A stretch of DNA of 64,000 nucleotides from an uncultured Desulfobacteraceae bacterium (GTDB lineage Bacteria; Desulfobacterota; Desulfobacteria; Desulfobacterales; UBA5852), in the NCBI GenBank assembly GCA_913060875.1, contig CAJXSL010000010.1, forward strand, positions 1 through 64,000. The letters are read 5' to 3'. Shown in pieces: positions 267 to 51,300 of this stretch (the first letter of the stretch is position 1; each line of letters begins with the position of its first letter). The position numbers and the translations under genes are program-made. The notes under the pieces were generated by a model. That model made no database searches. It saw only the letters and a list, made by a program, of their open reading frames with translations, and was not told the origin of the DNA.

Positions 267-1958
267 TCAAATATATCCCCTCTGGCCGAGCACCACCAGG
301 ATATGCTGGGCGGCCTCGTCAGGGGTGAGATCGGTGGTATCCACCATTACTTCCGGGTTCTGCGGGGCTTCGTAGGGATCGTCTACGCCGGTGAAGCCTT
401 TGATCAGTCCGGCGCGGGCTTTGGCGTACATGCCTTTGCGGTCGCGTTTTTCGCAGGTGTCGATAGGGGTAGCCACATGGACTTCAAAAAAACCCCCGTA
501 GGCCTCAATCACCTGGCGGATTTCCCGACGGGTCACTTCGTAGGGGGCAATGGGCGCGCAGATGGCAATGCCGCGATTCTTGGTGATTTCACCGGCTACG
601 AAACCGATTCGCCGGACGTTGATATCCCGGTCTTCCTTGGAAAAGGTGAGTTTGCTGGAAAGATTGCGGCGTACGATGTCGCCGTCCAGCAGGGTCACTG
701 GCCGGTCGCCCCTTTCCAGGAATTTGGAGAACAGCACCTGGGCGATGGTGGATTTGCCGGCTCCGGAGAGGCCGGTCATAAACACGGTAAACCCTCTTTT
801 GCGCGGGGGCGGGAAAGCCCGCCGCATTTCGGCAACCACCTCCGGGAAGGTGATCCAGGATGGGATGCGTTTGCCGGAGCCGATCCGGGCGCGAATATCG
901 GTGCCGCTCATGGAGATGGTCTGGGCGCCTTCCGGCACCTGATCGCTGAAACGGAACTCGTCTTCAAAAGGCAGGTAGACCATTTCGTTCAGGGAAACGA
1001 TGTCGACGCCGATTTCCGTCGAAAATTCCTGGGCGGCTAGGTTGGCGGCTTCAGCGTCGTAATAGGCCTGACCGTTTGAGTCTTTGCCGGGGCCGGCATG
1101 GTCGTACCCCACGATAAAATGGGTGCAGCCGAAATTCCGGGCGATGATAGCATGCAGAAGGGCCTCCCGGGGGCCGGCCATGCGCATGGCCAGGGGCAGG
1201 AGGTTGAGCATGTGGCTGTCCGGCGGATAGTGGCGGCCCACCAGTTTGTGGCAGCGCACCCGGGTATAGTGGTCGAAATCCCCCGGCTTGGTCATGCCCA
1301 CCACGGGCAGCAGCAACAGATTGGCCCGGGCTTCATGCATGGCGTGGAGGGTCATCTCGTACTGGGGACGATGGATGGGATGACGGGTCTGGAAACCGAC
1401 AATGCGCTTCCAGCCCAGTTTGGCGTACATGGCCTGGATCTCCCGGGGGGTCTGGCGGCTTTGCTTGAAATCGAAGCGCAGGGGCGGGCTGAGCACTTCC
1501 AGTTTGCCACCCACATAATAGTCGCCGCTGCGATGAAAAAGATAGTCCACCCCGGGGTGGTGGGTGTCGGAGGTGCCGTAGACCGCCAGGGCCTCTTTTT
1601 CGCGTTCCACCAGCCATATATCTTCGATATGCATGACGGCCAGTAAAAAACCTTCGGGGTCGCGCAGGGTCACGGACTGTCCGGTTTCGAGACTTTGGGC
1701 CACGCTCTCTGAAATGTCGAGGGTAATGGGCAGCGGCCAAAGCGTGTCGTCCTGCAACCGCATGCGGTCCAAAACGGATTCATAGTCCGAACGGGACATA
1801 AAACGATCCAGCGGCGAAAAGACGCCCGTGGCCAGAAGCTCCAGATCGCAGAGATGGCGTTCGTTCAGGGTGATGTCGGGCAGCTTGAGGGACAGATCCT
1901 TGAGCAAGCAGCGGCGTTCTTCATCAACAACCAGATCGACAAGGGGGGGAGAGGACAT
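267..1958 (-). CDS. sat: Bifunctional ATP sulfurylase / APS kinase
   Basis: Predicted to make adenylyl sulfate from ATP and sulfate and phosphorylate it to PAPS in the cytoplasm. Residues 1-380 are an ATP sulfurylase: the HxxH-type nucleotide motif is QTRHPIHRPQYE (190-201), then AGPREALLHA (261-270) and GYDHAGPG (284-291). Residues 388-563 are an APS kinase with P-loop GLSGAGKST (396-404) and DGDIVRRNL (425-433). At 563 residues it matches known sulfurylase-kinase fusions. Compared with the usual QTRNPxHRAHE and GRDHAG motifs, the second His and the Arg are replaced, so substrate handling may differ. The start is supported by AAGGAG eight bases upstream. cysQ lies upstream on the same strand; together they suggest PAPS-dependent sulfation or assimilation rather than dissimilatory sulfate activation, which needs no APS kinase. 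Symbol given for the sulfurylase half; the other half is cysC. Confidence 0.93.
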   Translation of the reverse strand: MSSPPLVDLVVDEERRCLLKDLSLKLPDITLNERHLCDLELLATGVFSPLDRFMSRSDYESVLDRMRLQDDTLWPLPITLDISESVAQSLETGQSVTLRDPEGFLLAVMHIEDIWLVEREKEALAVYGTSDTHHPGVDYLFHRSGDYYVGGKLEVLSPPLRFDFKQSRQTPREIQAMYAKLGWKRIVGFQTRHPIHRPQYEMTLHAMHEARANLLLLPVVGMTKPGDFDHYTRVRCHKLVGRHYPPDSHMLNLLPLAMRMAGPREALLHAIIARNFGCTHFIVGYDHAGPGKDSNGQAYYDAEAANLAAQEFSTEIGVDIVSLNEMVYLPFEDEFRFSDQVPEGAQTISMSGTDIRARIGSGKRIPSWITFPEVVAEMRRAFPPPRKRGFTVFMTGLSGAGKSTIAQVLFSKFLERGDRPVTLLDGDIVRRNLSSKLTFSKEDRDINVRRIGFVAGEITKNRGIAICAPIAPYEVTRREIRQVIEAYGGFFEVHVATPIDTCEKRDRKGMYAKARAGLIKGFTGVDDPYEAPQNPEVMVDTTDLTPDEAAQHILVVLGQRGYI

Positions 1959-1977
1959 GTATGGACTCCTTCAAAAA

Positions 1978-2150
1978 AAAGCTCAAAGCGTCAAGTTGAA
2001 AGCAGCTGCCTTCGGCAGAGCTCAAAGTTCAAAGCTGAAAGGAACAGCGGAAAACCGGATTTTTACCACCCGCTTCGCTCGAGGCACGAAAAAAAGCAGC
2101 GCCAAGCTCAAAGCTGAAAGCTCAAAGGAAAAGCAGGAAAAGAGAGAATA
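1978..2150. repeat. Low-complexity hairpin repeat, copy A
   Basis: Several degenerate units of AGCTCAAAGCTGAAAG occur with a small hairpin CTGCC-TTC-GGCAG at 2006-2018. The same unit recurs near 2296-2368, 7023-7190, 9130-9300 and 51245-51300. It fills much of the gap between cysQ and the sulfurylase gene. The bases after it (2150-2290) hold AATTCC/TTTCC-rich low-complexity sequence that also recurs beside other copies. Confidence 0.75.
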
Positions 2151-2295
2151 GAGTATCGGGTAGATGGGAAAGAACTATGAAATCAAGGTATTTGTGAACG
2201 ATAGTGGCACTAATTCCCAATTCCTTTTTTTCTCATTCCTGAAATTCCCGATTTCCCTAATTCCTAATTTCCTGTTTTCTTGTTTCCTGAATTTC

Positions 2296-2368
2296 CTTCG
2301 AGCTTTGAGCTAGGCGCTTTCAGCTCTGCCGCAGGCAGCCGCTTTCAGCTTTGAACGGCTGCTTTCTT
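2296..2368. repeat. Low-complexity hairpin repeat, copy B, entering cysQ
   Basis: Inverted relative to copy A. The hairpin CTGCC-GCA-GGCAG is at 2326-2338. It overlaps the 3' end of cysQ: the last eleven codons (FKAESGCLRQS) and the stop are repeat sequence. The tail of the unrelated cbiA gene is of the same origin. Confidence 0.75.
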
Positions 2369-3195
2369 TTTACCACAAACCAGGGATTCAGCAGATTTTC
2401 CTTATTATATAACAGGGGCCGGCCGGATTCGAATTCCAGGACCCTGGCCCCGGCCGCTTCGGCGATGGCCTGACCGGCGGCCGTATCCCACTCCATGGTG
2501 GGGCCGGTGCGGGGGTAGAGGTGGGCGCGGCCCTCGGCGACCATGCAGAGCTTGAGGGAACTGCCGGCGGAGATCAAGGCCACATCGCCATGGATTTGCG
2601 CCATTTCCTGTTTGATTTGGTCTACTTCCGGCGTGCTGTGGGAGCGGCTGCCGACGATGGTGAACACCTCGGGTATGGACGATGGCGAGGGCAGGGGGTC
2701 GGATACCCGGATAAGGGTTTGTCGTATTGTATCGCTATCGGTTTCTTTTGCGGTGATCTGTGCCCAAGCCTTGTCGGCGGAGGCCAATTTGAAGGCGCCG
2801 CCCGTGATGGTCCCGAAATAGAGGACGTCGTGAACCGGCACATAGATCACCCCCAGGACAGGCGCCTGTTGGTCAATCAGGGCGATATTGATGGTAAATT
2901 CACCGTTGCGCTTCACAAATTCCTTGGTGCCGTCCAGGGGATCCAATAGCCAGAAACGCTGCCAGTCCCGTCGCTCCGCATAAGTCAGGTGGCGGCCTTC
3001 TTCACTTAGAACGGGCAATTGTGTTGGGGCCAGGGCTTCCACCAGTATCCGGTGCGATTTCCGGTCGGCCAGGGTTAACGGCGAGTCATCCGCCTTGTGG
3101 TCCACCGCAAAATCCGTTGCATAAACATCCAGAACCGCTTTGCCGGCCTGGATGGCCGCATCGATTGTCCGTGAAAGAAATGCCTCGATTGTCAT
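2320..3195 (-). CDS. cysQ: 3'(2'),5'-bisphosphate nucleotidase CysQ
   Basis: Hydrolyses 3'-phosphoadenosine 5'-phosphate (PAP), the product left when PAPS is used, to AMP. It is a member of the Mg-dependent, Li-sensitive inositol monophosphatase superfamily. The metal site is visible as EE at 65-66, DPLDGT at 85-90, and the C-terminal EWDTAAGQAI motif near residue 235. Length (291) is slightly over the family norm because the final eleven residues (FKAESGCLRQS) are encoded by an interspersed repeat. AGAGGT lies nine bases before the ATG. It lies upstream of the sulfurylase-kinase fusion on the same strand, 361 bp apart, which fits a shared role in PAPS metabolism. Confidence 0.9.
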   Translation of the reverse strand: MTIEAFLSRTIDAAIQAGKAVLDVYATDFAVDHKADDSPLTLADRKSHRILVEALAPTQLPVLSEEGRHLTYAERRDWQRFWLLDPLDGTKEFVKRNGEFTINIALIDQQAPVLGVIYVPVHDVLYFGTITGGAFKLASADKAWAQITAKETDSDTIRQTLIRVSDPLPSPSSIPEVFTIVGSRSHSTPEVDQIKQEMAQIHGDVALISAGSSLKLCMVAEGRAHLYPRTGPTMEWDTAAGQAIAEAAGARVLEFESGRPLLYNKENLLNPWFVVKRKQPFKAESGCLRQS

Positions 3196-3446
3196 GTTCT
3201 ATACCTCTTAGACCTCAAGTTATCCGATAAAATGTCGAAACCATTGAATAATCGATTCTTGTCGACAGCTCCGCCCTGTGGATTGCAGGGCCACTTGGGT
3301 TACAACTTATTGTGTTTACTACAAAAACTACCTGAAACGCAACAAAAAAGCCACTGGACGACAAATCAATCCAACGAGCAGGTTTGGCCTGGGACAAAGC
3401 TCATCCGGGACAGATCCTCGTTGGTGCGGCAAATCGCGCAGGCTAT

Positions 3447-3568
3447 CCGGTTTATTTCACGCGCTTGACATGTTCATTGGAAGGTATCAAGGGTGCCGCT
3501 GTACGCCTCGATAACGCAAGCCCCTGATAACGCACCCAATGGACATCGTGTAAGCGCGAAATAACCGG
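3447..3568. repeat. Large imperfect inverted repeat
   Basis: Two arms of about 33 bases, starting CCGGTTTATTTC on the left and ending GAAATAACCGG on the right, pair with a few mismatches around a 55-base centre. The centre contains a direct repeat GATAACGCA. No open reading frame is enclosed. It differs in sequence from the 144-bp palindromes elsewhere in the window. Confidence 0.65.
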
Positions 3569-4045
3569 GTTAGCGGTTTTTAAAGATTTGATCCAGGCGC
3601 CCCTTAAGACGTTGCCTCAATTGGATAGCTATTAAAGTATTTAATAGTATTCCCATTAAGAAAATTAAAACCAGCGCAAAAACGTTAAATTATTTAATGG
3701 TAGAATTTCCAAAAACCCAATGATAATCTTCAAATATCGAGAAAATTCGAGAATCGCAATCTACAATATTTGTATAAAATTGTTTTGTGATCGGAAAAAA
3801 TTGACATTTTTTCTGAGTTACGGATTGGCGGCAAAAGTGGCACCACTCGAACCATCCGAGCTTCACCTGTGCATACCATTTCTATATAGCAAATTTCGGC
3901 AAAAAGAATTTTTGAATAATAACAATTGCTGGTAACTATCTGTATGGATATCTTTCGATCGTTACCAAGGCGTTAGGAAAGTCAGATCATTTACCAAAGG
4001 CGCATTTACAACATTAATTTGTCAGGACGACGAAAACGACTGTGC

Positions 4046-4071
4046 ATATTTGTATAAACATTTTGTACAAA
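4046..4071. promoter_or_regulatory. Candidate enhancer-binding-protein site
   Basis: TTTGTA (4049-4054) and TACAAA (4066-4071) form an inverted repeat just upstream of the sigma-54 promoter. The 13-mer ATATTTGTATAAA at 4046-4058 also occurs exactly at 3766-3778, about 280 bp further upstream. Paired upstream sites are the usual layout for a sigma-54 activator. The link to any named activator is inference. Confidence 0.35.
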
Positions 4072-4082
4072 AAGATAATGTG

Positions 4083-4100
4083 TTGGCATGTAATTTGCTA
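4083..4100 (+). promoter_or_regulatory. Sigma-54 (RpoN) promoter
   Basis: TTGGCATGTAATTTGCTA matches the -24/-12 consensus TGGCAC-N5-TTGCW with the GG and GC doublets at the correct spacing. It ends about 60 bases before the first PEP-CTERM gene. Many PEP-CTERM/exosortase genomes encode a PrsK/PrsR system that activates sigma-54 promoters of PEP-CTERM genes, which fits this position. That regulator is not in the window. Confidence 0.7.
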
Positions 4101-4160
4101 ATTTTTCTCCAAGAACACGAAGTATCACCATGCTATTCATGAATATATGCGAGGTTTGCC

Positions 4161-4688
4161 ATGCAAATAGATAAGAAAAAAATACTCAGCCTGATCCTGA
4201 TCCTGATGACGTTACCGGTGGCCGCCTCGGCGGCGACACTCACCACAAATGATTTTTATAATGAATACCAGTCCGATGCGATCTATCTGTTTATCATCAA
4301 TAATAATACAGGGCGAGACATCAGTTTCGTAGATGACCCAATTGTTTTCGATGGCGCAACTGCAGGATGGACCACGACGCTTTTCAGCCCAGAAGCACTC
4401 GTGATGCAGGGGGCGACCATCGACCCCTATACGGGGAATTTCGATGTAACGTTCTGGGATAACCGCAACGGCAATGGGAACCCCACCGGCTTTTTCGATT
4501 TTACCCTGGAGTGGGCTGAATATCTCGGTGGCACGGCAGTGGCCCAAGGTTCTATTTATTATTCAAACGGCGGCATAACCGGTACAGACGGCAATTTCAC
4601 TTCTACCATTCCGACCCCTGTGCCGGCATCGCTCTGGCTGGCGATATCCGGGCTGACCCTGCTGGTCGGCCTTCGACGCTATCGATAG
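4161..4688 (+). CDS. PEP-CTERM sorting-domain protein 1
   Basis: A secreted protein of 175 residues. Residues 1-24 are a signal peptide (KKK, hydrophobic stretch, cleavage near AASAA). The C-terminus is a tripartite exosortase signal: a VPAS motif in a Pro-rich run near 152-157, a hydrophobic helix containing LWLAISGL, and a basic end GLRRYR. The core carries no recognised enzymatic domain and is probably beta-rich. It is expected to be cut and anchored or exported at the surface by an exosortase, which is not in this window. The next gene is a paralogue: both have an FTLEW-EYLG segment before the sorting signal. Transcription probably comes from the sigma-54 promoter 60 bp upstream. Confidence 0.85.
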   Translation: MQIDKKKILSLILILMTLPVAASAATLTTNDFYNEYQSDAIYLFIINNNTGRDISFVDDPIVFDGATAGWTTTLFSPEALVMQGATIDPYTGNFDVTFWDNRNGNGNPTGFFDFTLEWAEYLGGTAVAQGSIYYSNGGITGTDGNFTSTIPTPVPASLWLAISGLTLLVGLRRYR

Positions 4689-4704
4689 AGAGGACGGAAA
4701 CCCC

Positions 4705-5235
4705 ATGCGCACTAAAATGATCATCCTGATGACGGTTGCTTTTTTCATGATGATTCCGGCCGGGGCGTCGGCGGCATATTTGCCCTTCAGCTACACCAAT
4801 CATTATGAAACCGATAGAATCGAGTTTAACATTGTCGGGATTGAAGATCCGGCACTTGATATAACATTCGCGAATATCAATTTTCCTGGTTATGAACATG
4901 AAATTAGTTCCAGCGTTGATTGGAATTTTAAAAGAAGCAATAATTTTCACACACTCATTTTCCAACCCGATTCGGTGAGCACGATTGCAGAAGGCACGGG
5001 GGTATTCAATCTTTGGCTTTTTGAAAGTCTGACAGGCTGGTTACCCGTCACACTGGATAGCTACAATTTCACCCTGGAATGGACCGAATACCTGGGGGCA
5101 GCAACTCAGGGGTCGGGCCAAATTTTATTTGAAGAGGGTGTTGATGTGCTTTACACCCCGATCCCCGCCTCCGCATGGATGCTGATGTCAGGGCTGGCCA
5201 TATTTGTCGGTATCCGGCGGCACCGGGCCGGATAA
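4705..5235 (+). CDS. PEP-CTERM sorting-domain protein 2
   Basis: A paralogue of the preceding gene (176 residues), 16 bp downstream and probably co-transcribed. It has an N-terminal signal peptide (1-23, ending GASAA), an unrecognised extracellular core, and a C-terminal exosortase signal with IPASAWML, a hydrophobic helix and a basic IRRHRAG end. The shared FTLEWTEYLG segment shows common ancestry, but the cores have diverged. GAGAGGA precedes the ATG. A strong intrinsic terminator follows. Function is unknown; PEP-CTERM proteins are typically linked to extracellular polysaccharide or surface matrix. Confidence 0.85.
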   Translation: MRTKMIILMTVAFFMMIPAGASAAYLPFSYTNHYETDRIEFNIVGIEDPALDITFANINFPGYEHEISSSVDWNFKRSNNFHTLIFQPDSVSTIAEGTGVFNLWLFESLTGWLPVTLDSYNFTLEWTEYLGAATQGSGQILFEEGVDVLYTPIPASAWMLMSGLAIFVGIRRHRAG

Positions 5236-5261
5236 TGATTTACGTGGCATAGGTGCTAATG

Positions 5262-5289
5262 GGGCCGGGGAATTTCCCGGCCCTTTTTT
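5262..5289 (+). terminator. Rho-independent terminator
   Basis: GGGCCGGG and CCCGGCCC form a perfect 8-bp GC stem with an AATTT-type loop, followed by TTTTTT. It lies 27 bp after the stop codon of the second PEP-CTERM gene. Confidence 0.9.
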
Positions 5290-5665
5290 GTCGTCTCTTG
5301 TTGCTTGCAATTGCTCCCGCAGCCATCCGCCCCCCTGAATTCATCCTTCCTCGGCATCTCTTAAACCCACCTGTCCACATAAGAAAGCGTAAATTATCAA
5401 ATGGTTTTAAGGCTTTGTTTGTAATCGATTAGCGGCTGGTTACCATTGTTTGCCCTCAGGAAAAAACACGCAAATAGTTGCCCAGTGCTGCGGCAAAGGT
5501 GCTGCCTTCATTCACGGTGTACTTGATATGGGGTTGGCCTGCTCTTGCCAACTGATTTTCCGGGGGGGTATAGTAGCGCGATAATTCGTTTCGATGACAG
5601 ACATTGACGAAATCAGCCCGAATATCTCATGAAATATCCGGGTTCGCGGTGAGGAGCAGGTTCGA
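5290..5665. other. Leader region of the cobalamin cluster
   Basis: No gene is seen. I looked for a cobalamin riboswitch and found no convincing B12 box. There is a small imperfect hairpin at 5617-5642 (CCCGAATAT against ATATCCGGG) just before the cbiA ribosome binding site. No clear sigma-70 promoter could be assigned. Confidence 0.45.
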
Positions 5666-7063
5666 ATGACCAAAGGCTTTATGATTGCCGGCACGTCCAG
5701 CGGCAGCGGTAAAACCACGCTGACCCTGGCCTTTCTGGCCGCCCTGGGGGCACGCGGCTGTCGTATGGCGCCGTTCAAAGTCGGGCCGGATTTTATCGAT
5801 CCCGGGCATCACACCCGGATTACGGGCACCACCAGCCGCAACCTGGATGGATGGATGCTGCCCCAGGGGTATAACCAAGACCTTTTCCGGCGCTGTTGCC
5901 GTGCTGCGGATCTGGCCGTGGTGGAAGGGGTCATGGGACTCTACGACGGGTACGACGGCCGCAGTGAGGCCGGCTCCACAGCCCAGATGGCCAAATGGCT
6001 TGATCTGCCGGTGCTGCTCGTGGTGGATGCCCGCAGCATGGCCCGTAGCGCCGCGGCGCTTGTCCAGGGCTACGAACGCTTCGATCCAGACGTCCGGTTT
6101 GCCGGGGTCGTCTTCAACCGCATCGGCAGTCCGAAGCACCTGACCTATCTCCAGGAGGCACTGGCAGGGCATGTCACCATGCCTTGTCTCGGGGGTATCC
6201 CTCGCGACGAGGCCGTCGGCATTCCGGAACGGCATCTGGGGCTGCACACGGCCGACGATCATCCATTGGACCAGGATGCCGCCGACCGTCTGGCAGCTCT
6301 GGTGGAAAACCATGTGGACCTCGATCGCCTGTTGGCAATGGCGACCCACCTGCCGGCGCTGGATACCACCGGGAAGGCTTCCGGTATTCCCGGTGAAGGT
6401 ACGGTGCGCATCGGCGTGGCCAGGGACCCGGCCTTTTGCTTCTACTATCCGGACAATCTGGAAATAATGGCGCATCACGGTGCCGAGATTATCTTTTTTT
6501 CCCCCCTGGCCGACCGCCGGTTGCCCGAAGGTCTCGACGGGTTGTATTTCGGCGGTGGCTATCCGGAACTGCAGGCGGAACAGCTGGCCGCCAACCGCGG
6601 CCTGCGGGCCATGGTGAAAGACTGTTCCCTTGCCGGCATGCCGATTTATGCCGAATGCGGCGGTTTCATGTACCTCTGCGAGCAGCTGACCGATGCCGGG
6701 GGAGAGACCTGGCCCATGGCCGGCTGTTTTCCGATGGGTACGCGTATGCTGACCTGCCGCAAGGCGTTAGGCTATCGGGAAATCAGGCTGGCCAAAGCTT
6801 CTCCCCTGGGGCCGCCCGGACTTGTCGGGCGCGGTCACGAGTTTCACTATTCGGAACTAGTAAAGGATGCCCCCGGTGTTGCAACGGTATATGCCGCAAC
6901 CCCGCGATCCGGAGAAATTTTAAGGGAGGAAGGCTACCTTGTCCGGAACACCCTGGGCAGTTATATTCACTTGCATTTTGGCAGTAATCCCGATATGGCC
7001 AGTCACTTTGTGGAACGTTGTCGGAAGTTCAAGGCGGAAGAGGGCTTGCTTCGCAAGCGATAG
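5666..7063 (+). CDS. cbiA: Cobyrinic acid a,c-diamide synthase
   Basis: ATP- and glutamine-dependent amidation of the a and c side chains of cob(II)yrinic acid, in the cytoplasm. Residues 1-240 are the dethiobiotin-synthetase-like ATPase with P-loop GTSSGSGKTT (9-18) and KVGPDFIDPG. The C-terminal half is a class I glutamine amidotransferase with nucleophile Cys331 in AECGGFMYL and a later HFHYSE/HLHFG segment. Length (465) is normal. GAGGAG lies nine bases before the ATG. First gene of the cobalamin run. The last ten or so residues (FKAEEGLLRKR) come from an interspersed repeat and resemble the tail of CysQ. Confidence 0.95.
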   Translation: MTKGFMIAGTSSGSGKTTLTLAFLAALGARGCRMAPFKVGPDFIDPGHHTRITGTTSRNLDGWMLPQGYNQDLFRRCCRAADLAVVEGVMGLYDGYDGRSEAGSTAQMAKWLDLPVLLVVDARSMARSAAALVQGYERFDPDVRFAGVVFNRIGSPKHLTYLQEALAGHVTMPCLGGIPRDEAVGIPERHLGLHTADDHPLDQDAADRLAALVENHVDLDRLLAMATHLPALDTTGKASGIPGEGTVRIGVARDPAFCFYYPDNLEIMAHHGAEIIFFSPLADRRLPEGLDGLYFGGGYPELQAEQLAANRGLRAMVKDCSLAGMPIYAECGGFMYLCEQLTDAGGETWPMAGCFPMGTRMLTCRKALGYREIRLAKASPLGPPGLVGRGHEFHYSELVKDAPGVATVYAATPRSGEILREEGYLVRNTLGSYIHLHFGSNPDMASHFVERCRKFKAEEGLLRKR

Positions 7064-7190
7064 AGGTTTGAGGTCTGAGGTTGGAGGCAAAAGATGGCTG
7101 CCTGCGGCAGCGTCGCAGGCTCAAAGCAACTGCCTGCGGCAAAGTCACAAGCTCAAAGCTGAAAGCTCAAAGGAACTGCCAAAAACAGGG
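7023..7190. repeat. Low-complexity hairpin repeat, copy C, entering cbiA
   Basis: Three hairpins with different stems share the layout: GCTTGC-TTC-GCAAGC (7044-7058), GCTGCC-TGC-GGCAGC (7097-7111) and TGCC-TGC-GGCA (7131-7141), mixed with AAGCTCAAAGCTGAAAG units. The first lies inside the cbiA reading frame. Further low-complexity sequence (GACCCCTTGATCCC at 7270-7283) follows up to cbiC. Confidence 0.75.
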
Positions 7191-7344: not shown

Positions 7345-7983
7345 ATGCGAAAGGACCCCACATACATGAAACCGGCGGAAATCGAAGCCCTCAGCTTTGA
7401 CATCATCGAAAAAGAAGCCGGCGAACACGGTTTTCCGGAGGACCAGTGGAAGATCGTGCGTCGGATGATTCATACCAGTGCCGATTTCGAATATCTCACG
7501 ACGGTGCGCTTCCATGACGATGCGGTGGCCGCCGGTGTGGAGGCCATTCGCAAGGGCCGCAATGTGGTGACCGACACCAACATGGCCCGGGCCGGCATTC
7601 GCAAAAGCGCCGTCCTGCGTTTCGGCGGCTCTTTGGAATGCCTGATCAATGATCCTACGGTGGCCCACGCCGCAAGGGATTCCGGATGTACCCGGGCCAT
7701 GGCCGCCGTCGATGCGGCCATCCCCATGATGCGGGAAGGGCTCTACGTGATCGGCAATGCTCCGACCGCCCTTCTGCGGCTGATGGACCTCATAAAATCG
7801 GGGAAGGCCGCGCCGGCCCTGGTGGTGGGACTGCCGGTGGGGTTTGTCAACGCGGCCGAATCCAAAGCGCTGCTGGTGGATATGGATATCCCCTTCATCA
7901 CCAACAAGGGCCGCAAAGGCGGTTCCAATGTGGCCGCTAGTGTTGTCAATGCTTTGATCCTGATGGCCTCGGCCGAAGAGTGA
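7345..7983 (+). CDS. cbiC: Precorrin-8 methylmutase
   Basis: Moves the C-11 methyl group to C-12 of (cobalt-)precorrin-8, giving (cob)yrinate. The catalytic His is His43 in MIHTSADFEY; RKGRNVVTDTNM and the Gly-rich NAPTAL and GLPVGFVNA segments are family hallmarks. From the chosen ATG it is 212 residues, the usual size. A TTG further upstream (7276) is open but lies inside a low-complexity repeat. ATG 7366 is a second alternative, with AAAGGA ten bases upstream. cbiD follows 36 bp later. Confidence 0.93.
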   Translation: MRKDPTYMKPAEIEALSFDIIEKEAGEHGFPEDQWKIVRRMIHTSADFEYLTTVRFHDDAVAAGVEAIRKGRNVVTDTNMARAGIRKSAVLRFGGSLECLINDPTVAHAARDSGCTRAMAAVDAAIPMMREGLYVIGNAPTALLRLMDLIKSGKAAPALVVGLPVGFVNAAESKALLVDMDIPFITNKGRKGGSNVAASVVNALILMASAEE

Positions 7984-8019: not shown

Positions 8020-9120
8020 ATGAGCCGAAAGCGACTGCGAAGCGGTTTTACAACGGGAACGGCGGCGGCTGCCGCCACCAAAGCAGCGCTTAAGGCCCTG
8101 GTGACGTCAGCGGATCCCCGCTCCGTGCGCATTGACTTCCTGACAGAGGGCCGTGTGTCGATACCGGTCCACTCTCTGGAACGTCTGTCCACGGAAACAG
8201 CCGTGGCCACGGTGATAAAGGATGCCGGCGATGATCCGGACGTGACCCACAGGGCGGAAATCGGGGCCCGGGTGACCCTTTCGCCGGCGTCTCGAGCGGA
8301 TGAAGAGACCTTGATCCTTACGATCCGGGGAGGGCAGGGCGTGGGGCGCGTGACCAAACCGGGGCTTGAAATGCCGCCGGGTGAAGCCGCCATCAATCCC
8401 GGGCCGCGCCTTATGATCCGGCAGGCCGTGGAGCAGGTTCTCGGACGGGACGCCAAACCGGCCGCTATCGATGTCGAGATTTTTGTGCCCCAGGGGGAAG
8501 CCCTGGCCCGCAACACCCTCAATGCCCGGTTGGGCATCGTCGGCGGGCTGTCCATCCTCGGCACCACCGGTATCGTCAAACCCTTGTCCCACGAGGCCTA
8601 TACGGCCACCATCCGCTCGGCCCTTTCGGTTGCCCGGGCTGCGGAGCGGGATACGGTGGTGATGACCACCGGGCGACGCAGCGAACGGTTCAGCCAGGCA
8701 CTGTTTCCCGAATGGCACGAGGAGCAGTTCATCCAGATCGGCGATTACTTCCAGTTCGCCCTGGCGGCGGCCGCAGAGATGGGGGTGCGCCGTATTATCC
8801 TGGCGGTTTTTTTCGGCAAGGCCGTCAAAATGGCCATGGGGGTACCCCATACCCATGCCGCGAAATCGGAACTCCTGCTGGACCGGCTGGCCCAATGGAC
8901 CGCCGATGTGACCGGGCGTCCACAACTGGTAGAGGCCGTCCGCCAGGCCAATACGGCCCGGCATGCCTTTGAACTGCTCAATGGGAAATACCCGGAAGTC
9001 ATTGGCCGGGTTGGACAGCAGATCGTTCGGCATGCCGGCATTTTTGCGGAAGGCAAACCGGCGGTGCGCAGCCTGATTTTCGATTACGAGGGCGATGTTA
9101 TTTTTGATTCAAGTCATTGA
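8020..9120 (+). CDS. cbiD: Cobalt-precorrin-5B C1-methyltransferase
   Basis: SAM-dependent methylation at C-1 in the oxygen-independent cobalamin route. The N-terminal SGFTTGTAAAAAT motif (8-20) is diagnostic of CbiD. GPRLMIR and TTGRRSE segments follow. At 366 residues it has the normal length. Presence of CbiD together with CbiG marks the anaerobic, early-cobalt pathway. An interspersed repeat and a 286-bp gap separate it from cbiET. Confidence 0.95.
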   Translation: MSRKRLRSGFTTGTAAAAATKAALKALVTSADPRSVRIDFLTEGRVSIPVHSLERLSTETAVATVIKDAGDDPDVTHRAEIGARVTLSPASRADEETLILTIRGGQGVGRVTKPGLEMPPGEAAINPGPRLMIRQAVEQVLGRDAKPAAIDVEIFVPQGEALARNTLNARLGIVGGLSILGTTGIVKPLSHEAYTATIRSALSVARAAERDTVVMTTGRRSERFSQALFPEWHEEQFIQIGDYFQFALAAAAEMGVRRIILAVFFGKAVKMAMGVPHTHAAKSELLLDRLAQWTADVTGRPQLVEAVRQANTARHAFELLNGKYPEVIGRVGQQIVRHAGIFAEGKPAVRSLIFDYEGDVIFDSSH

Positions 9121-9129
9121 GAAACCAGG

Positions 9130-9300
9130 TAAATAGAAATTAGGAAAATCGGGCTGCAGAAAAAGAATTCAGAAGCCAGGAGCCAGGAGAAAAAGCGCCA
9201 GGATCAAAGCTGAAAGCGCTGCCTTCGGCAGAGCCATAAGCTCAAAGCGTCAAGCTGAAAGCTGAAAGGGTAAAACTCGAAAAAGGGAATTAGAAAGCAG
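9130..9300. repeat. Low-complexity hairpin repeat, copy D
   Basis: Lies between cbiD and cbiET. It contains ATCAAAGCTGAAAGC units, the hairpin CTGCC-TTC-GGCAG at 9219-9231, and flanking GGAATTAGAAA/GGAAAA sequence also seen beside the other copies. No gene is seen in the 286-bp gap. Confidence 0.7.
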
Positions 9301-9406: not shown

Positions 9407-10666
9407 ATGCCAACTTCACAAACAGGCCCCGCCCAACCGGTCGCGATCATCGGCATGGGCATGTCCCCCGGCGACTTGACGGCCGTCCATCGCGACGTGA
9501 TTGCGGCGGCCGATCTCCTGGTGGGGGGGCGGCGCCATCTGGCTTTTTTCCGGGACAGGGTCCCCGAAACGTACACGGTGACCGCCGACCTGAAACAGCT
9601 TGCGGAAGTGATCCGGGAGGGCATCCGGAAGGACAAGCGTATTGTGGTGCTGGCTTCGGGCGATCCGCTGTATTTCGGTATCGGCAGTTATCTGGCGCGG
9701 AACCTGGGGCGGGAAAATATCCGGTTTTATCCCAATATCACCTCGGTGGCGGCCGCTTTTGCCCGGATCGGGGAACCCTGGCAGGATGTGCCGGTGGTCA
9801 GCCTCCACGGTCGGCGTCAGGAGGACCGGCTGGCCCGGGCCCTGGGGCAGGCGAAGCGCATTGCGGTATTTACGGATCCTGCCTGTTCCCCCCAGTGGGT
9901 GGGGGATTTTCTGAGCCGCCGCCAGGTCCTGGATTTCCGGATCGGGGTCTTCGAATGCATGGGCACCGATGAGGAGCGTGTCTCCTGGCACCGTCCGGAA
10001 ACGATCGGAAAACAGGATTTCAACAGCCCCAATATGGTCATCCTCAAAAGAATGCCGGGGGAGGGCGGGGAACGCCCGGGCCTGCACCTGGGGATGCCCG
10101 AGTCGGCCTACGCCCATGAACAGGGTCTGATTACCAAGGCGGAAGTCCGGGCCGTGACGTTGGCTCGGTTGGAACTGGGGCCCCGACAGGTTTTGTGGGA
10201 CCTGGGGGCGGGCAGCGGCGCCGTTGCCATCGAGGCCTCATTGCTGATGCCCGGCGGGCGGATTGTGGCCGTGGAGAAAAATCCGAACCGGATCGAACAG
10301 ATTCGCACCAATCGGGATCGGTTCGGCGTCGCCAATCTGGATGTGGTGGAAACGGTATTGCCGGACGGGTTGGGAGACTTGCCGGACCCGGACCGGGTGT
10401 TCATCGGTGGCGGCGGGAAGGCCCTGATCGAGATCATCGCAAAGGTATGCCGTCGGTTGACAGGGGAGGAGGTTCTGGTGGTCAACACGGTCCTCTTGGA
10501 CAACCTTCACGATACGGTGCGCTGCCTGCGATCCAACGCCATGGACATCGATGTCGTGCAGGTTCAGGCCAGCCGCAGCCAGCCCCTGGCCGACAGCGAG
10601 CGCATGCAGGCCATGAACCCGGTATGGATCATCCGCGGCCGTAAGAAAAGACCCGATGGTGAGTAG
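9407..10666 (+). CDS. cbiET: Fused cobalt-precorrin-7 C5-/C15-methyltransferase CbiET
   Basis: One chain carries both late methylations and the C-12 acetate decarboxylation. Residues about 10-205 are CbiE (tetrapyrrole methylase fold: GMGMSPGDLT near the N-terminus, then ASGDPLYFG). Residues about 225-415 are CbiT, a class I methyltransferase with the SAM loop DLGAGSGAVAIE starting at 265 and VAVEKNP. At 419 residues it equals a full CobL/CbiET fusion. cbiF follows 18 bp later. Confidence 0.94.
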   Translation: MPTSQTGPAQPVAIIGMGMSPGDLTAVHRDVIAAADLLVGGRRHLAFFRDRVPETYTVTADLKQLAEVIREGIRKDKRIVVLASGDPLYFGIGSYLARNLGRENIRFYPNITSVAAAFARIGEPWQDVPVVSLHGRRQEDRLARALGQAKRIAVFTDPACSPQWVGDFLSRRQVLDFRIGVFECMGTDEERVSWHRPETIGKQDFNSPNMVILKRMPGEGGERPGLHLGMPESAYAHEQGLITKAEVRAVTLARLELGPRQVLWDLGAGSGAVAIEASLLMPGGRIVAVEKNPNRIEQIRTNRDRFGVANLDVVETVLPDGLGDLPDPDRVFIGGGGKALIEIIAKVCRRLTGEEVLVVNTVLLDNLHDTVRCLRSNAMDIDVVQVQASRSQPLADSERMQAMNPVWIIRGRKKRPDGE

Positions 10667-31430: not shown

Positions 31431-31517
31431 GCCGGCGTCACCAGGGATGCATCGGCGGGCAAGCCCAGGCGGCACCCGCCGGCATACAACCGCTGTCCGC
31501 CGGTCGGCATGATAAAT

Positions 31518-31661
31518 AGTGCCCATCCGTAAACGGTATCTTTCGGCCCCTGGTGGCGTTCTCGCTCGTTTTCAATCCTCGAAATAGCGGGCTATTCCTC
31601 CGGTTGAAAACTTGCTCGGGCCTTGCCAGAAACCAAAATCTACCATTTATGGACGGACACT
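31518..31661. repeat. 144-bp palindromic element, copy 1
   Basis: Begins AGTGCCCATCC and ends GGACGGACACT. Nearly the whole element folds on itself: outer AAACGGTAT/ATTTGG-type arms, an inner GTTTTCAA/TTGAAAAC arm and a central AATAGCGGGCTATT. Two more copies are at 46280-46423 and 49179-49324. No coding capacity. AAAT occurs on both sides of this copy, a possible short target duplication. Confidence 0.85.
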
Positions 31662-31706
31662 AAATGACAGCATCGTTGCCTATCCCATACAACAGGAGGA
31701 ACGGCG

Positions 31707-46185: not shown

Positions 46186-46279
46186 GCGTGAATATTCAAC
46201 CCCTCGTTGGATTACAGGTCCGATGCGCCTGGAAGAAAGCGTGAAGCCAATGGTGCCGCGGATCGGTATCATGCTATTG

Positions 46280-46423
46280 AGTGTCCATCCCTAAATGGCA
46301 TCTTTCGGCCCCTGGCGGCGTTCGCGCGCGTTTTCAATCCTCGCAATAGCGGGCTATTCCTCCGGTTTAAAACGCGCTCGGGCCTGGCCGGGAACCCAAA
46401 TCTACCATTTATGGACGGACACC
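46280..46423. repeat. 144-bp palindromic element, copy 2
   Basis: Begins AGTGTCCATCCC and ends GGACGGACACC, with the same inner arms as copies 1 and 3. It separates the minus-strand PHP gene from ispF. Same orientation as the others. Internal sequence GCGCGCGTTTTCAATCC differs slightly from copy 1. Confidence 0.85.
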
Positions 46424-46593
46424 AGATAACGGCAAAATGGATTTCGTTGTATGAATGTGTATAGTACATATCGACGCGGATGGGAAATTCTTAAATAAAA
46501 TTTTTCACTTCGTCGGGATCCTTTACGGGCACAAGCCGTCTATAGTAATGCCCCACACGGCACTTGTTATTTTTTACCGAAGGAGGAAGCCGT

Positions 46594-47150: not shown

Positions 47151-49157
47151 ATGAAGTCATTGTTTAAATTAGAAACCGCTCTGAAACCCCAGGGGGATCA
47201 ACCCGAGGCCATCCGGGCCATGATCCGGAATCTTAAAAAGGGGACGGCGCACAATGTATTGCTGGGGGTGACAGGGTCCGGGAAAACCTTTACGATGGCC
47301 AATATCATCGCCGGCCTGTCGGCGCCAACCCTTATCATTGCCCCGAACAAGACCCTGGCCGCCCAGCTGTACAACGAGTTCAAAGCTTTTTTTCCGCATA
47401 ACGCCGTTGAATATTTTGTCAGCTATTACGACTACTACCAGCCGGAAGCCTATATTCCGGCCAGCGACACCTATATCGCCAAGGATTCGTCCATCAATGA
47501 AATGATCGACAAGCTGCGCCATTCCGCCACCCGTTCCGTGCTTTCAAGACGGGACGTCATTGTCGTGGCCAGCGTGTCCTGCATCTACGGTCTGGGCGCG
47601 CCTGAAGATTATCTCGGGATGCGGGCGGATATCGCCAAAAATGATCTGTTGGACAGGGATGAACTTTTACGCAAGCTGGTTTCGATGCAATACGAGCGCA
47701 ATGATATCGATTTCCATCGGGGCACATTCCGGGTAAGGGGGGATCGGGTGGAGATTTTCCCGGCGTATGAGGAAAATATCGCGCTGCGGGTAGAGTTTTT
47801 CGGCGACGAAGTGGATGTCCTGGCGGAAATCGATCCCTTACGGGGTTCGGTTCTGCGCGCCATTCCCCGGACCGCGATTTTCCCGGCCAGCCATTATGTC
47901 ACACGGGCCGGCACCTTGAAGCGGGCGCGGTCTACCATCATGGCGGAGCTTAAAGAGCGCCTCGAATATTTTCGTAGTGAAAACAGTCTATTGGAAGCCC
48001 AGCGCATTGAAGAACGCACCCTGTATGACCTGGAGATGATGACGGAGCTGGGCTACTGCACGGGCATTGAAAACTACTCGCGGCATCTGACCGGCCGGTC
48101 ACCGGGCGAGCCACCGCCGACGCTGCTGGACTATTTCCCGGATGATTTTCTTTTGTTCATCGACGAAAGTCATATCGCCATTCCGCAATTGGGGGGCATG
48201 TACAAGGGGGATCGCAGCCGGAAAAAGACCCTTGTGCGATACGGATTCCGTCTGCCGTCGGCTCTGGACAACCGGCCGCTGAAATTCGAAGAATCCACCG
48301 CCCGTTTCAACCGGGCGGTGTATGTTTCCGCCACGCCCGCCGACTACGAGCGGCAGCTCGGACAGGGTCACCTGGTGGAATTGATCGTGCGCCCCACCGG
48401 CCTGGTGGACCCGGAAATCGATATCCGTCCCGCCGGAATACAGGTGGACGATCTCCTGGAGGCCATCCACCGGCGGGTCGAACGCAACGAGAGGGTGCTG
48501 GTGACGACGCTGACCAAGCGCATGGCCGAGGATTTGACCGAATACTATGGCGATCTGGGGCTGCGGGTACGCTATCTGCACGCCGACATATCCACCCTTG
48601 AGCGCATGGATATCATCCGTGATCTGCGTCGGGGGGATTTCGACGTGCTCATCGGTATCAACCTGCTGCGGGAGGGCCTTGATATCCCCGAGGTTTCGCT
48701 GGTGGCAATTCTGGATGCGGACAAGGAGGGGTTTTTGCGGTCGAGCCGTTCCCTGATCCAGACCTGCGGTCGCGCGGCCCGCAACGTCAACGGCAAGGTG
48801 ATCATGTATGCGGATCGGGTAACGGATTCCATGCAGCAGGCGTTGGCCGAGACCGAGCGCCGTCGTTCGATTCAACGTCAATACAACGAAACCCATGGCA
48901 TCACGCCGCAGACCATACAAAAAGAGATCGTCTCCATATTTGATGATTTGACATCCCCGAACAAACCGCAAGAAGGCGAACGGGTCCGTGAAACCCAGGC
49001 GGCCTATGGGAGCATCGATGAAATGGAACAATCGATCAAGGCGCTTGAATCGGAAATGATGGTCGCCGCCCGGGATCTCGAATTCGAGCGGGCCGCGGAT
49101 TTGCGTGACCGCATCCAGGCCATCAAAGCGCATCTGGTTTTCGATGGCAACGCCTGA
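47151..49157 (+). CDS. uvrB: Excinuclease ABC subunit B
   Basis: Damage-verification helicase of nucleotide-excision repair. 668 residues. Walker [11 protein letters not shown] near 40-49, the beta-hairpin segment [17 protein letters not shown] box, RPTGLVDP, the motif VI region QTCGRAARN, and the C-terminal UVR motif. Normal length. Little Shine-Dalgarno is seen before the ATG (AAAGAATTAAAAT). uvrC follows after a palindromic repeat. Confidence 0.95.
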
Positions 49158-49178
49158 CGGCCATCGGAAATGCCCATT

Positions 49179-49324
49179 GGTATCCATCCCTAAATGGCAT
49201 CTTTCGACCCCTGGCGGCGTTCGCGCTCGTTTTCAATCCTTGAAATAGCGGGTTATTTCTCCGGTTGGGAAAACTCGCTCGGGCCTTGCCAGGGACCAAA
49301 ATCTACCACTTATGGGCGGACACC
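49179..49324. repeat. 144-bp palindromic element, copy 3
   Basis: Begins GGTATCCATCCC and ends GGGCGGACACC, between uvrB and uvrC. CCCATT lies on both sides, a possible short target duplication. Copies 2 and 3 form direct repeats flanking ispF and uvrB. Confidence 0.85.
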
Positions 49325-49373
49325 CATTAACATTTTGGTTTAAACGACGCATCAGAGCGAAGATGAGGCGCGA

Positions 49374-51244: not shown

Positions 51245-51300
51245 ATGAAAAAGCGCCAAGCTCAAAGCATCAAGCGGAAAGGGCGACGCATCGCGTCGAC
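51245..51300. repeat. Low-complexity hairpin repeat, copy E
   Basis: AAGCTCAAAGCATCAAGCGGAAAG, shown here in part as AAGCTCAAAGCATCAAGC, is followed by the hairpin CGACGC-ATC-GCGTCG at 51284-51298. The stem is unrelated in sequence to the CTGCC/GGCAG stem of the other copies but occupies the same place. Lies between uvrC and mdh. Confidence 0.65.

Follow-up and report, generated by a model that had tools for sequence, protein, structure and literature searches.

The 64,000-nt stretch analysed here (the window; positions 1 to 64,000 of contig CAJXSL010000010.1 from an uncultured Desulfobacteraceae bacterium [GenBank: GCA_913060875.1]) carries cysQ and sat-cysC on the minus strand and a cbi gene cluster on the plus strand. 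Spacers between these genes are occupied by 7-nt repeat units (heptads, AGCTSAA) that are arranged in inverted arrays and interspersed with CTGCC-TKC-GGCAG hairpins at 1978-2360, 7061-7175 and 9140-9290. A 23-nt heptad pattern has 86 matches in the genome at up to 3 mismatches (none for the reversed pattern used as a control), and most of them fall in one 85-kb contig, C21. In this work we have analyzed the contribution of the repeat to the C-termini of CysQ and CbiA and the kind of element to which it may belong. The cysQ end of the locus comprises the following features:

267-1958, minus strand: sat-cysC (sulfate adenylyltransferase / adenosine 5′-phosphosulfate kinase; named by inspection of the sequence), downstream of cysQ.
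1959-2365, minus strand: RNA of the cysQ-sat spacer, for which a single long hairpin is predicted (dG -158.9 kcal/mol, z -7.3); the codons of the cysQ tail lie at the base of this hairpin.
1978-2130, plus strand: plus-oriented arm of the cysQ-sat element, AGCTSAA heptads and a hairpin CTGCC-TTC-GGCAG, beginning some 20 nt ahead of the start codon of sat-cysC.
2275-2360, minus strand: minus-oriented arm of the same element, which over 62-86 nt shares 81-87% identity with minus arms of the C21 array elements.
2320-2355, minus strand: repeat-coded CysQ tail FKAESGCLRQS and stop codon, the TGA lying within an AGCTGAA heptad; found in none of the relatives compared.
2320-3195, minus strand: cysQ, 3′(2′),5′-bisphosphate nucleotidase, with a match above cut-off to TIGR01331 (CysQ equivalog model).
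2326-2338, minus strand: hairpin module CTGCC-TGC-GGCAG, which recurs in the genome.

The sequence-only reading of the window had pointed out that CysQ ends FKAESGCLRQS and CbiA ends FKAEEGLLRKR, as they indeed do, and had proposed that a mobile or copy-prone repeat encodes both tails. For CysQ, the C-terminus of which is KRKQPFKAESGCLRQS, this proved right. The DNA coding for its tail (QPFKAESGCLRQS and the stop codon) agrees at 30 of 31 nt with a repeat copy at C21:32384-32414, reaching a score of 29, while 40 random 42-mers taken from the window gave a maximum of 18. The cysQ stop codon is thus supplied by the dispersed repeat. In its relatives CysQ ends in NPWF[IV]V followed by a short variable stretch, with neither the tail nor the repeat, and in two of them (genomes G003 and G001) cysQ is followed by sat after 16-80 nt without an array, compared with an array-filled spacer of 361 nt here. 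Since the relatives lack both tail and repeat and the tail DNA is a copy of the repeat, a copy-prone sequence has made or replaced this C-terminus: the CysQ tail was written by a copy of the dispersed repeat. It probably represents one arm of the predicted RNA hairpin and is probably neutral.

Other proteins are altered by the repeat too, as a survey of gene tails in the window and in 60 kb of C21 revealed. RNase H1 (C21:31271-31978; L032:11271-11978, minus strand) has the C-terminus DTAYEAAAFGRAQS with a repeat-coded tail AAFGRAQS; its stop codon lies in an AGCTGAA heptad, as in cysQ, and the sequences that follow DT.YE in its relatives are unrelated. A heptad provides both the last Ser and the stop codon of an epimerase (C21:3258-4232), and in a 550-residue EpsH-EpsI protein (C21:15553-17205, L031) the repeat encodes, in frame, the linker that joins the exosortase EpsH domain to DUF3485. 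The homologue of the latter in genome G006 also has a repetitive linker, made of other words. RNase H1 and cysQ use the same repeat unit in different frames, which yields different peptides; this points to neutral by-products and argues against a shared function of the tails. The effect common to both tails that had been suggested therefore finds no support, and their positive charge is weak (net about +1 for CysQ and +2 for CbiA).

The second tail belongs to a gene of the cbi cluster, where the following features were recognized:

5666-7063, plus strand: cbiA, cobyrinic acid a,c-diamide synthase (CobB/CbiA model), with a match to NF002204 above cut-off.
7031-7060, plus strand: CbiA tail (K)FKAEEGLLRKR, with FKAEE ancestral as judged by alignment and a DNA-repeat match no better than chance.
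7061-7175, plus strand: array of the cbiA-cbiC spacer, in which degenerate heptads (TAGAGGT/TTGAGGT/CTGAGGT) start at the cbiA stop codon.
7098 and 7130, plus strand: hairpin modules in the cbiA-cbiC array, with AGCTSAA heptads at 7150-7170.
7365-7983, plus strand: cbiC-like gene (precorrin-8X methylmutase by position and sequence).
9140-9290, plus strand: third heptad array, between cbiD (ends at 9120) and the next gene of the same cluster (starts at 9407).

CbiA (C-terminus CRKFKAEEGLLRKR) is the case in which the proposal failed. Its tail DNA scored at best 17 against the repeat copies, inside the random range; the last six residues are likewise dissimilar to the repeat, and the cysQ and cbiA tail DNAs are identical at only 22 of 36 nt. 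The only long exact unit common to the two loci (28 nt, 2103-2130 and 7148-7175) lies outside both tails. In relatives devoid of the repeat, FKAEE aligns with the C-terminal helix of the family, e.g. FREER (G003), YKLEK (G001), YKQER, YRHER and others, and the equivalent of FKAEE is followed there by short, often basic ends. By this alignment FKAEE is an ancestral feature of the family, which together with the chance-level score rules out the CbiA tail as a product of the repeat. Since the CysQ tail is repeat-made and the CbiA motif ancestral, the FKAE/FKAEE likeness is a coincidence. In most relatives compared cbiC starts at or near the cbiA stop codon, and in G003 and G001 it overlaps cbiA or follows it closely, without an array; here the spacer of about 300 nt is array-filled. 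A hairpin crossing the stop codon had been postulated for both genes. The small hairpins do not reach it (2326-2338 against the stop codon at 2320-2322 in cysQ, 7044-7058 against 7061-7063 in cbiA), but the long hairpin predicted for the cysQ-sat spacer does span the cysQ stop codon.

The nature of the element is indicated by its copies in C21. There the arrays occur as plus/minus pairs, three of which enclose a gene for S23 (PF05635, '23S rRNA intervening sequence protein'; TIGR02436, 'four helix bundle protein'), a protein whose gene is carried by some intervening sequences (IVSs) of 23S rRNA. Two more S23 genes in the contig are disrupted, and pairs lacking an open reading frame (ORF) have their inner sequence in common up to the region of the S23 start codon, the rest of the gene being gone. 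Two such ORF-less copies (A and D), located at separate sites with inverted arrays, are 91% identical over 281 nt, and two S23-bearing ones (B and H) are 89% identical over 437 nt. Arrays with an inverted mate number 12 in 60 kb of C21, whereas unrelated background loci (distant cysQ relatives) totalling 1.33 Mb contain a single one. They sit between protein genes and not within a 23S rRNA gene; an Rfam scan of the window and C21:1-40000 detected only two tRNAs and no known RNA family for the arrays. The stretch C21:1-42000 is a polysaccharide/exosortase gene region with very dense paired heptad arrays, approximately one per 2.5-3 kb.

The association of S23 with such arrays extends far beyond this genome. 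Of the 116 genomes examined from the order, 84 contain S23 genes above the family cut-off, and 59 of 60 sampled loci had usable flanks, gene boundaries being profile-based. With loci drawn from the top of the match list, controls from two gene families and related loci that are not independent, the median inverted complementarity between upstream and downstream flanks was 21 for the 59 S23 loci and 12 for 56 control genes (Mann-Whitney p=8e-11). Strongly periodic flanks were also far more common at S23 genes (71/119 versus 5/112), with periods of 7, 14 or 21 in 51 and of 8 or 16 in 15 of these 71, and the duplex energy of the arms went beyond that of shuffles (z<-3) at 31 of 59 S23 loci versus 3 of 54 controls. 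Similar values were obtained for 26 S23 loci from other parts of the phylum (median score 22.5; 26/52 flanks periodic). Arrays are present at 86 of 96 S23 loci.

The words of the arrays track the S23 lineage, not the host genome (Mantel r 0.417, 0/500 permutations). S23 pairs from the same genome with identity below 0.6 have almost no 7-mers in common, and pairs from different genomes with identity of at least 0.6 often do. In genome G017, from another family, S23 shares 66-67% identity with the C21 copies, and the AGCTSAA words recur in its arrays (cosine 0.75-0.85). Such a pattern is to be expected of an array and a gene that travel together; the match between words and S23 is explained by common descent, and no recognition is needed. 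A number of S23 genes, from several genomes, contain internal stop codons, as decaying elements would. Two loci (L160 of genome G119 and L190 of G033) have array words of the GACAGAK type, the same heptamer as in the rRNA IVS of Coxiella burnetii (PMC4990558).

Arrays at S23 loci usually abut or overlap the stop codon of the gene upstream. In 39 of 43 upstream co-oriented junctions the array starts at a position from -60 to +15 nt relative to the stop codon, in 26 at or before the end of the stop codon and in 14 at least 8 nt inside the gene, a closeness that is partly expected, operon spacers being short. Among the genes reached are those for QueA (L167, ending GDAMIIINEV), an HsdS-like subunit (L194, ending TGKLIIDN), resistance-nodulation-division adaptors (L160, L190), a sigma-54 regulator (L155) and an exosortase (L165). 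In HipA, also encoded upstream of an array (L196), the Pfam match stops 32 residues short of the C-terminus. A TTC-loop hairpin across the QueA stop codon at L157 prompted a trial of junction hairpins as a signature of insertion, which was rejected: triloop hairpins with arms of at least 6 occurred in 1 of 55 gene ends upstream of S23 and in 13 of 241 controls.

Several other repeats were observed in the window. A small, weaker patch of degenerate heptads lies on the plus strand:

51250-51284, plus strand: small degenerate heptad patch.

A heptad-like array of another vocabulary (AACTATC/AACTCTC) is located at 176-266, just downstream of sat-cysC, and similar words also follow a disrupted S23 gene at C21:400-590. 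Three dispersed repeats of 120-165 nt, 75-86% identical (31487-31672, 46249-46434 and 49148-49332), are possibly the ends of paralogous genes, and two neighbouring small secreted proteins with PEP-CTERM-like C-terminal ends are encoded at 4161-5235.

We consider it likely, with a probability of about three in four, that the 3′-terminal repeat of cysQ represents an arm of an intergenic inverted-array element which overran the cysQ stop codon, and that the copies in the window are most probably S23-less derivatives of S23 elements, because such arrays usually flank S23 genes in this genome and in the phylum. The element would consist of 7-nt units repeated in tandem and, beyond a spacer, of these units in the opposite orientation. 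One copy would have landed in the cysQ-sat spacer and overrun the stop codon, so that translation of cysQ would run on into the arm and terminate at the TGA of an AGCTGAA heptad; the new tail would then be the coding strand of one side of the long RNA hairpin. CbiA would have kept its ancestral tail, with a similar array directly behind it from the stop codon on. The element would presumably be mobile and its RNA hairpin may be processed, e.g. by RNase III, with the tail itself being neutral. Several observations speak against this interpretation. The window copies have no S23 match or remnant, so that their descent from an S23 element, suggested by sequence comparison, rests on the similarity of the arms. 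Neither a target-site duplication nor a mobilising enzyme was identified (no systematic search for transposases was made), and no movement was observed. The predicted fold of the cbiA-cbiC spacer RNA is no better than that of shuffles, and arrays reaching stop codons might reflect growth in place up to coding limits instead of insertion.

Such growth is the basis of another explanation, in which slippage in non-coding spacers spreads 7-nt arrays up to and over stop codons with no mobile element involved. It agrees with the variation of the arrays in copy number and degeneracy, with their occupation of spacers to both gene edges and with the occurrence of S23-less heptamer arrays in Beggiatoaceae, some overlapping stop codons (PMC4679880). 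However, arrays growing independently would not place the same words in inverted orientation on the other side of a gene, and slippage accounts neither for words common to related S23 loci of different families nor for the 91% identity, over 281 nt, of copies located apart from each other, which makes it unlikely as the origin of the arrays. We give slightly less credence still to a selected regulatory or processing element, i.e. hairpins at operon junctions which set mRNA stability or uncouple neighbouring genes, the tail being a tolerated side effect. The great predicted stability of the cysQ-sat hairpin and the location of arrays between co-oriented genes would suit such a role, as would the cleavage by RNase III of hairpins of miniature inverted-repeat transposable elements (MITEs) in other bacteria (PMC10969869), but relatives have the same operons without arrays, array sites vary between genomes, and the cbiA-cbiC array lacks a significant fold. 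The original idea that both tails derive from the repeat and confer a common property on the two proteins is highly improbable: the peptides are alike over FKAE and arrays are present at both loci, yet the relatives of CbiA already refute it for that protein, the DNA of whose tail resembles the repeat no more than by chance, and the same unit gives RNase H1 a different peptide.

The S23-derived element that we favour has counterparts among known systems. 23S rRNA IVSs are located inside the 23S rRNA gene (in helix 9, 25 or 45) and are excised by RNase III without religation. In the S23-bearing IVS of Coxiella burnetii tandem GACAGAT heptamers precede the ORF, and the first of them is the site of cleavage by RNase III (PMC4990558). 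The present elements resemble it in the S23 ORF of some C21 copies, the inverted ends forming a long stem and the tandem heptamers beside the ORF, and the predicted stem energies are similar (about -143 kcal/mol for the Coxiella IVS versus -159 for cysQ-sat). Inverted ends of this type with a long stem were found in the cysQ-sat spacer and at S23 flanks generally, and not at cbiA-cbiC. Unlike rRNA IVSs, the elements are sited between protein genes, their arrays are longer, more varied and multi-copy, and the window copies have no ORF. Being outside rRNA, the element is not an rRNA IVS; it looks like one and, by analogy, may work like one, so that the arrays between genes may represent IVS-like elements of mRNA. 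The ORF-less copies A and D fit the general description of MITEs (short, multi-copy, with terminal inverted repeats and no transposase ORF), although their ends are tandem arrays without sharp borders. As dispersed inverted repeats adding peptides to unrelated proteins they also resemble the Rickettsia palindromic elements and MITEs fused in frame (reviewed in PMC10969869), the EpsH-EpsI linker insertion being the closest parallel. This likeness, which is one of behaviour only, covers the CysQ and RNase H1 tails, the epimerase stop codon and the EpsH-EpsI linker; the present units are 7-nt tandem ones, mostly at 3′ ends where they supply stop codons, and their partner gene is S23, not a known transposase. 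The TAACTGA heptamer repeats of Beggiatoaceae and other bacteria (PMC4679880) similarly form intergenic arrays, some overlapping stop codons, but they consist of one fixed word, are mostly direct and were described without S23, whereas here the words are lineage-specific and inverted around S23. No published report of S23 genes flanked by heptad arrays outside rRNA was found in a search that excluded subscription papers and preprints.

PF05635 is said to resemble Avd, the accessory protein of diversity-generating retroelements, in sequence and structure (PMC10053308), and by this analogy S23 may bind nucleic acids. The S23 loci showed no reverse transcriptase, template repeat or variable repeat, although no search aimed at these was made. 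We tentatively extend the interpretation, as a possibility that we hold to be slightly less than evenly balanced: S23 genes with inverted heptad arrays would constitute a large group of mobile elements residing in protein-coding transcripts, each S23 lineage having its own matching 7-nt word, to which it perhaps binds, with rRNA IVSs as the special case that landed in rRNA and with insertion against stop codons regularly remodelling C-termini.

The wider S23-array pattern is more interesting than the pair of tails. We know of no function or origin assigned, over decades, to the S23 protein and the intervening sequences that encode it. Should most S23 genes prove to lie in heptad-array elements of ordinary operons, the role of S23 becomes testable, through binding to its own array and through movement of the element or processing of its RNA. 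If true, the interpretation would also account for the low-complexity linkers and C-terminal tails that are peculiar to single lineages in annotated proteins and can lead annotation astray. Finally, S23 genes turn up beside repeat arrays in surveys of clustered regularly interspaced short palindromic repeats (CRISPR) (PMC3936711, PMC10910872), and S23-array elements may account for these occurrences, an explanation that is our own.

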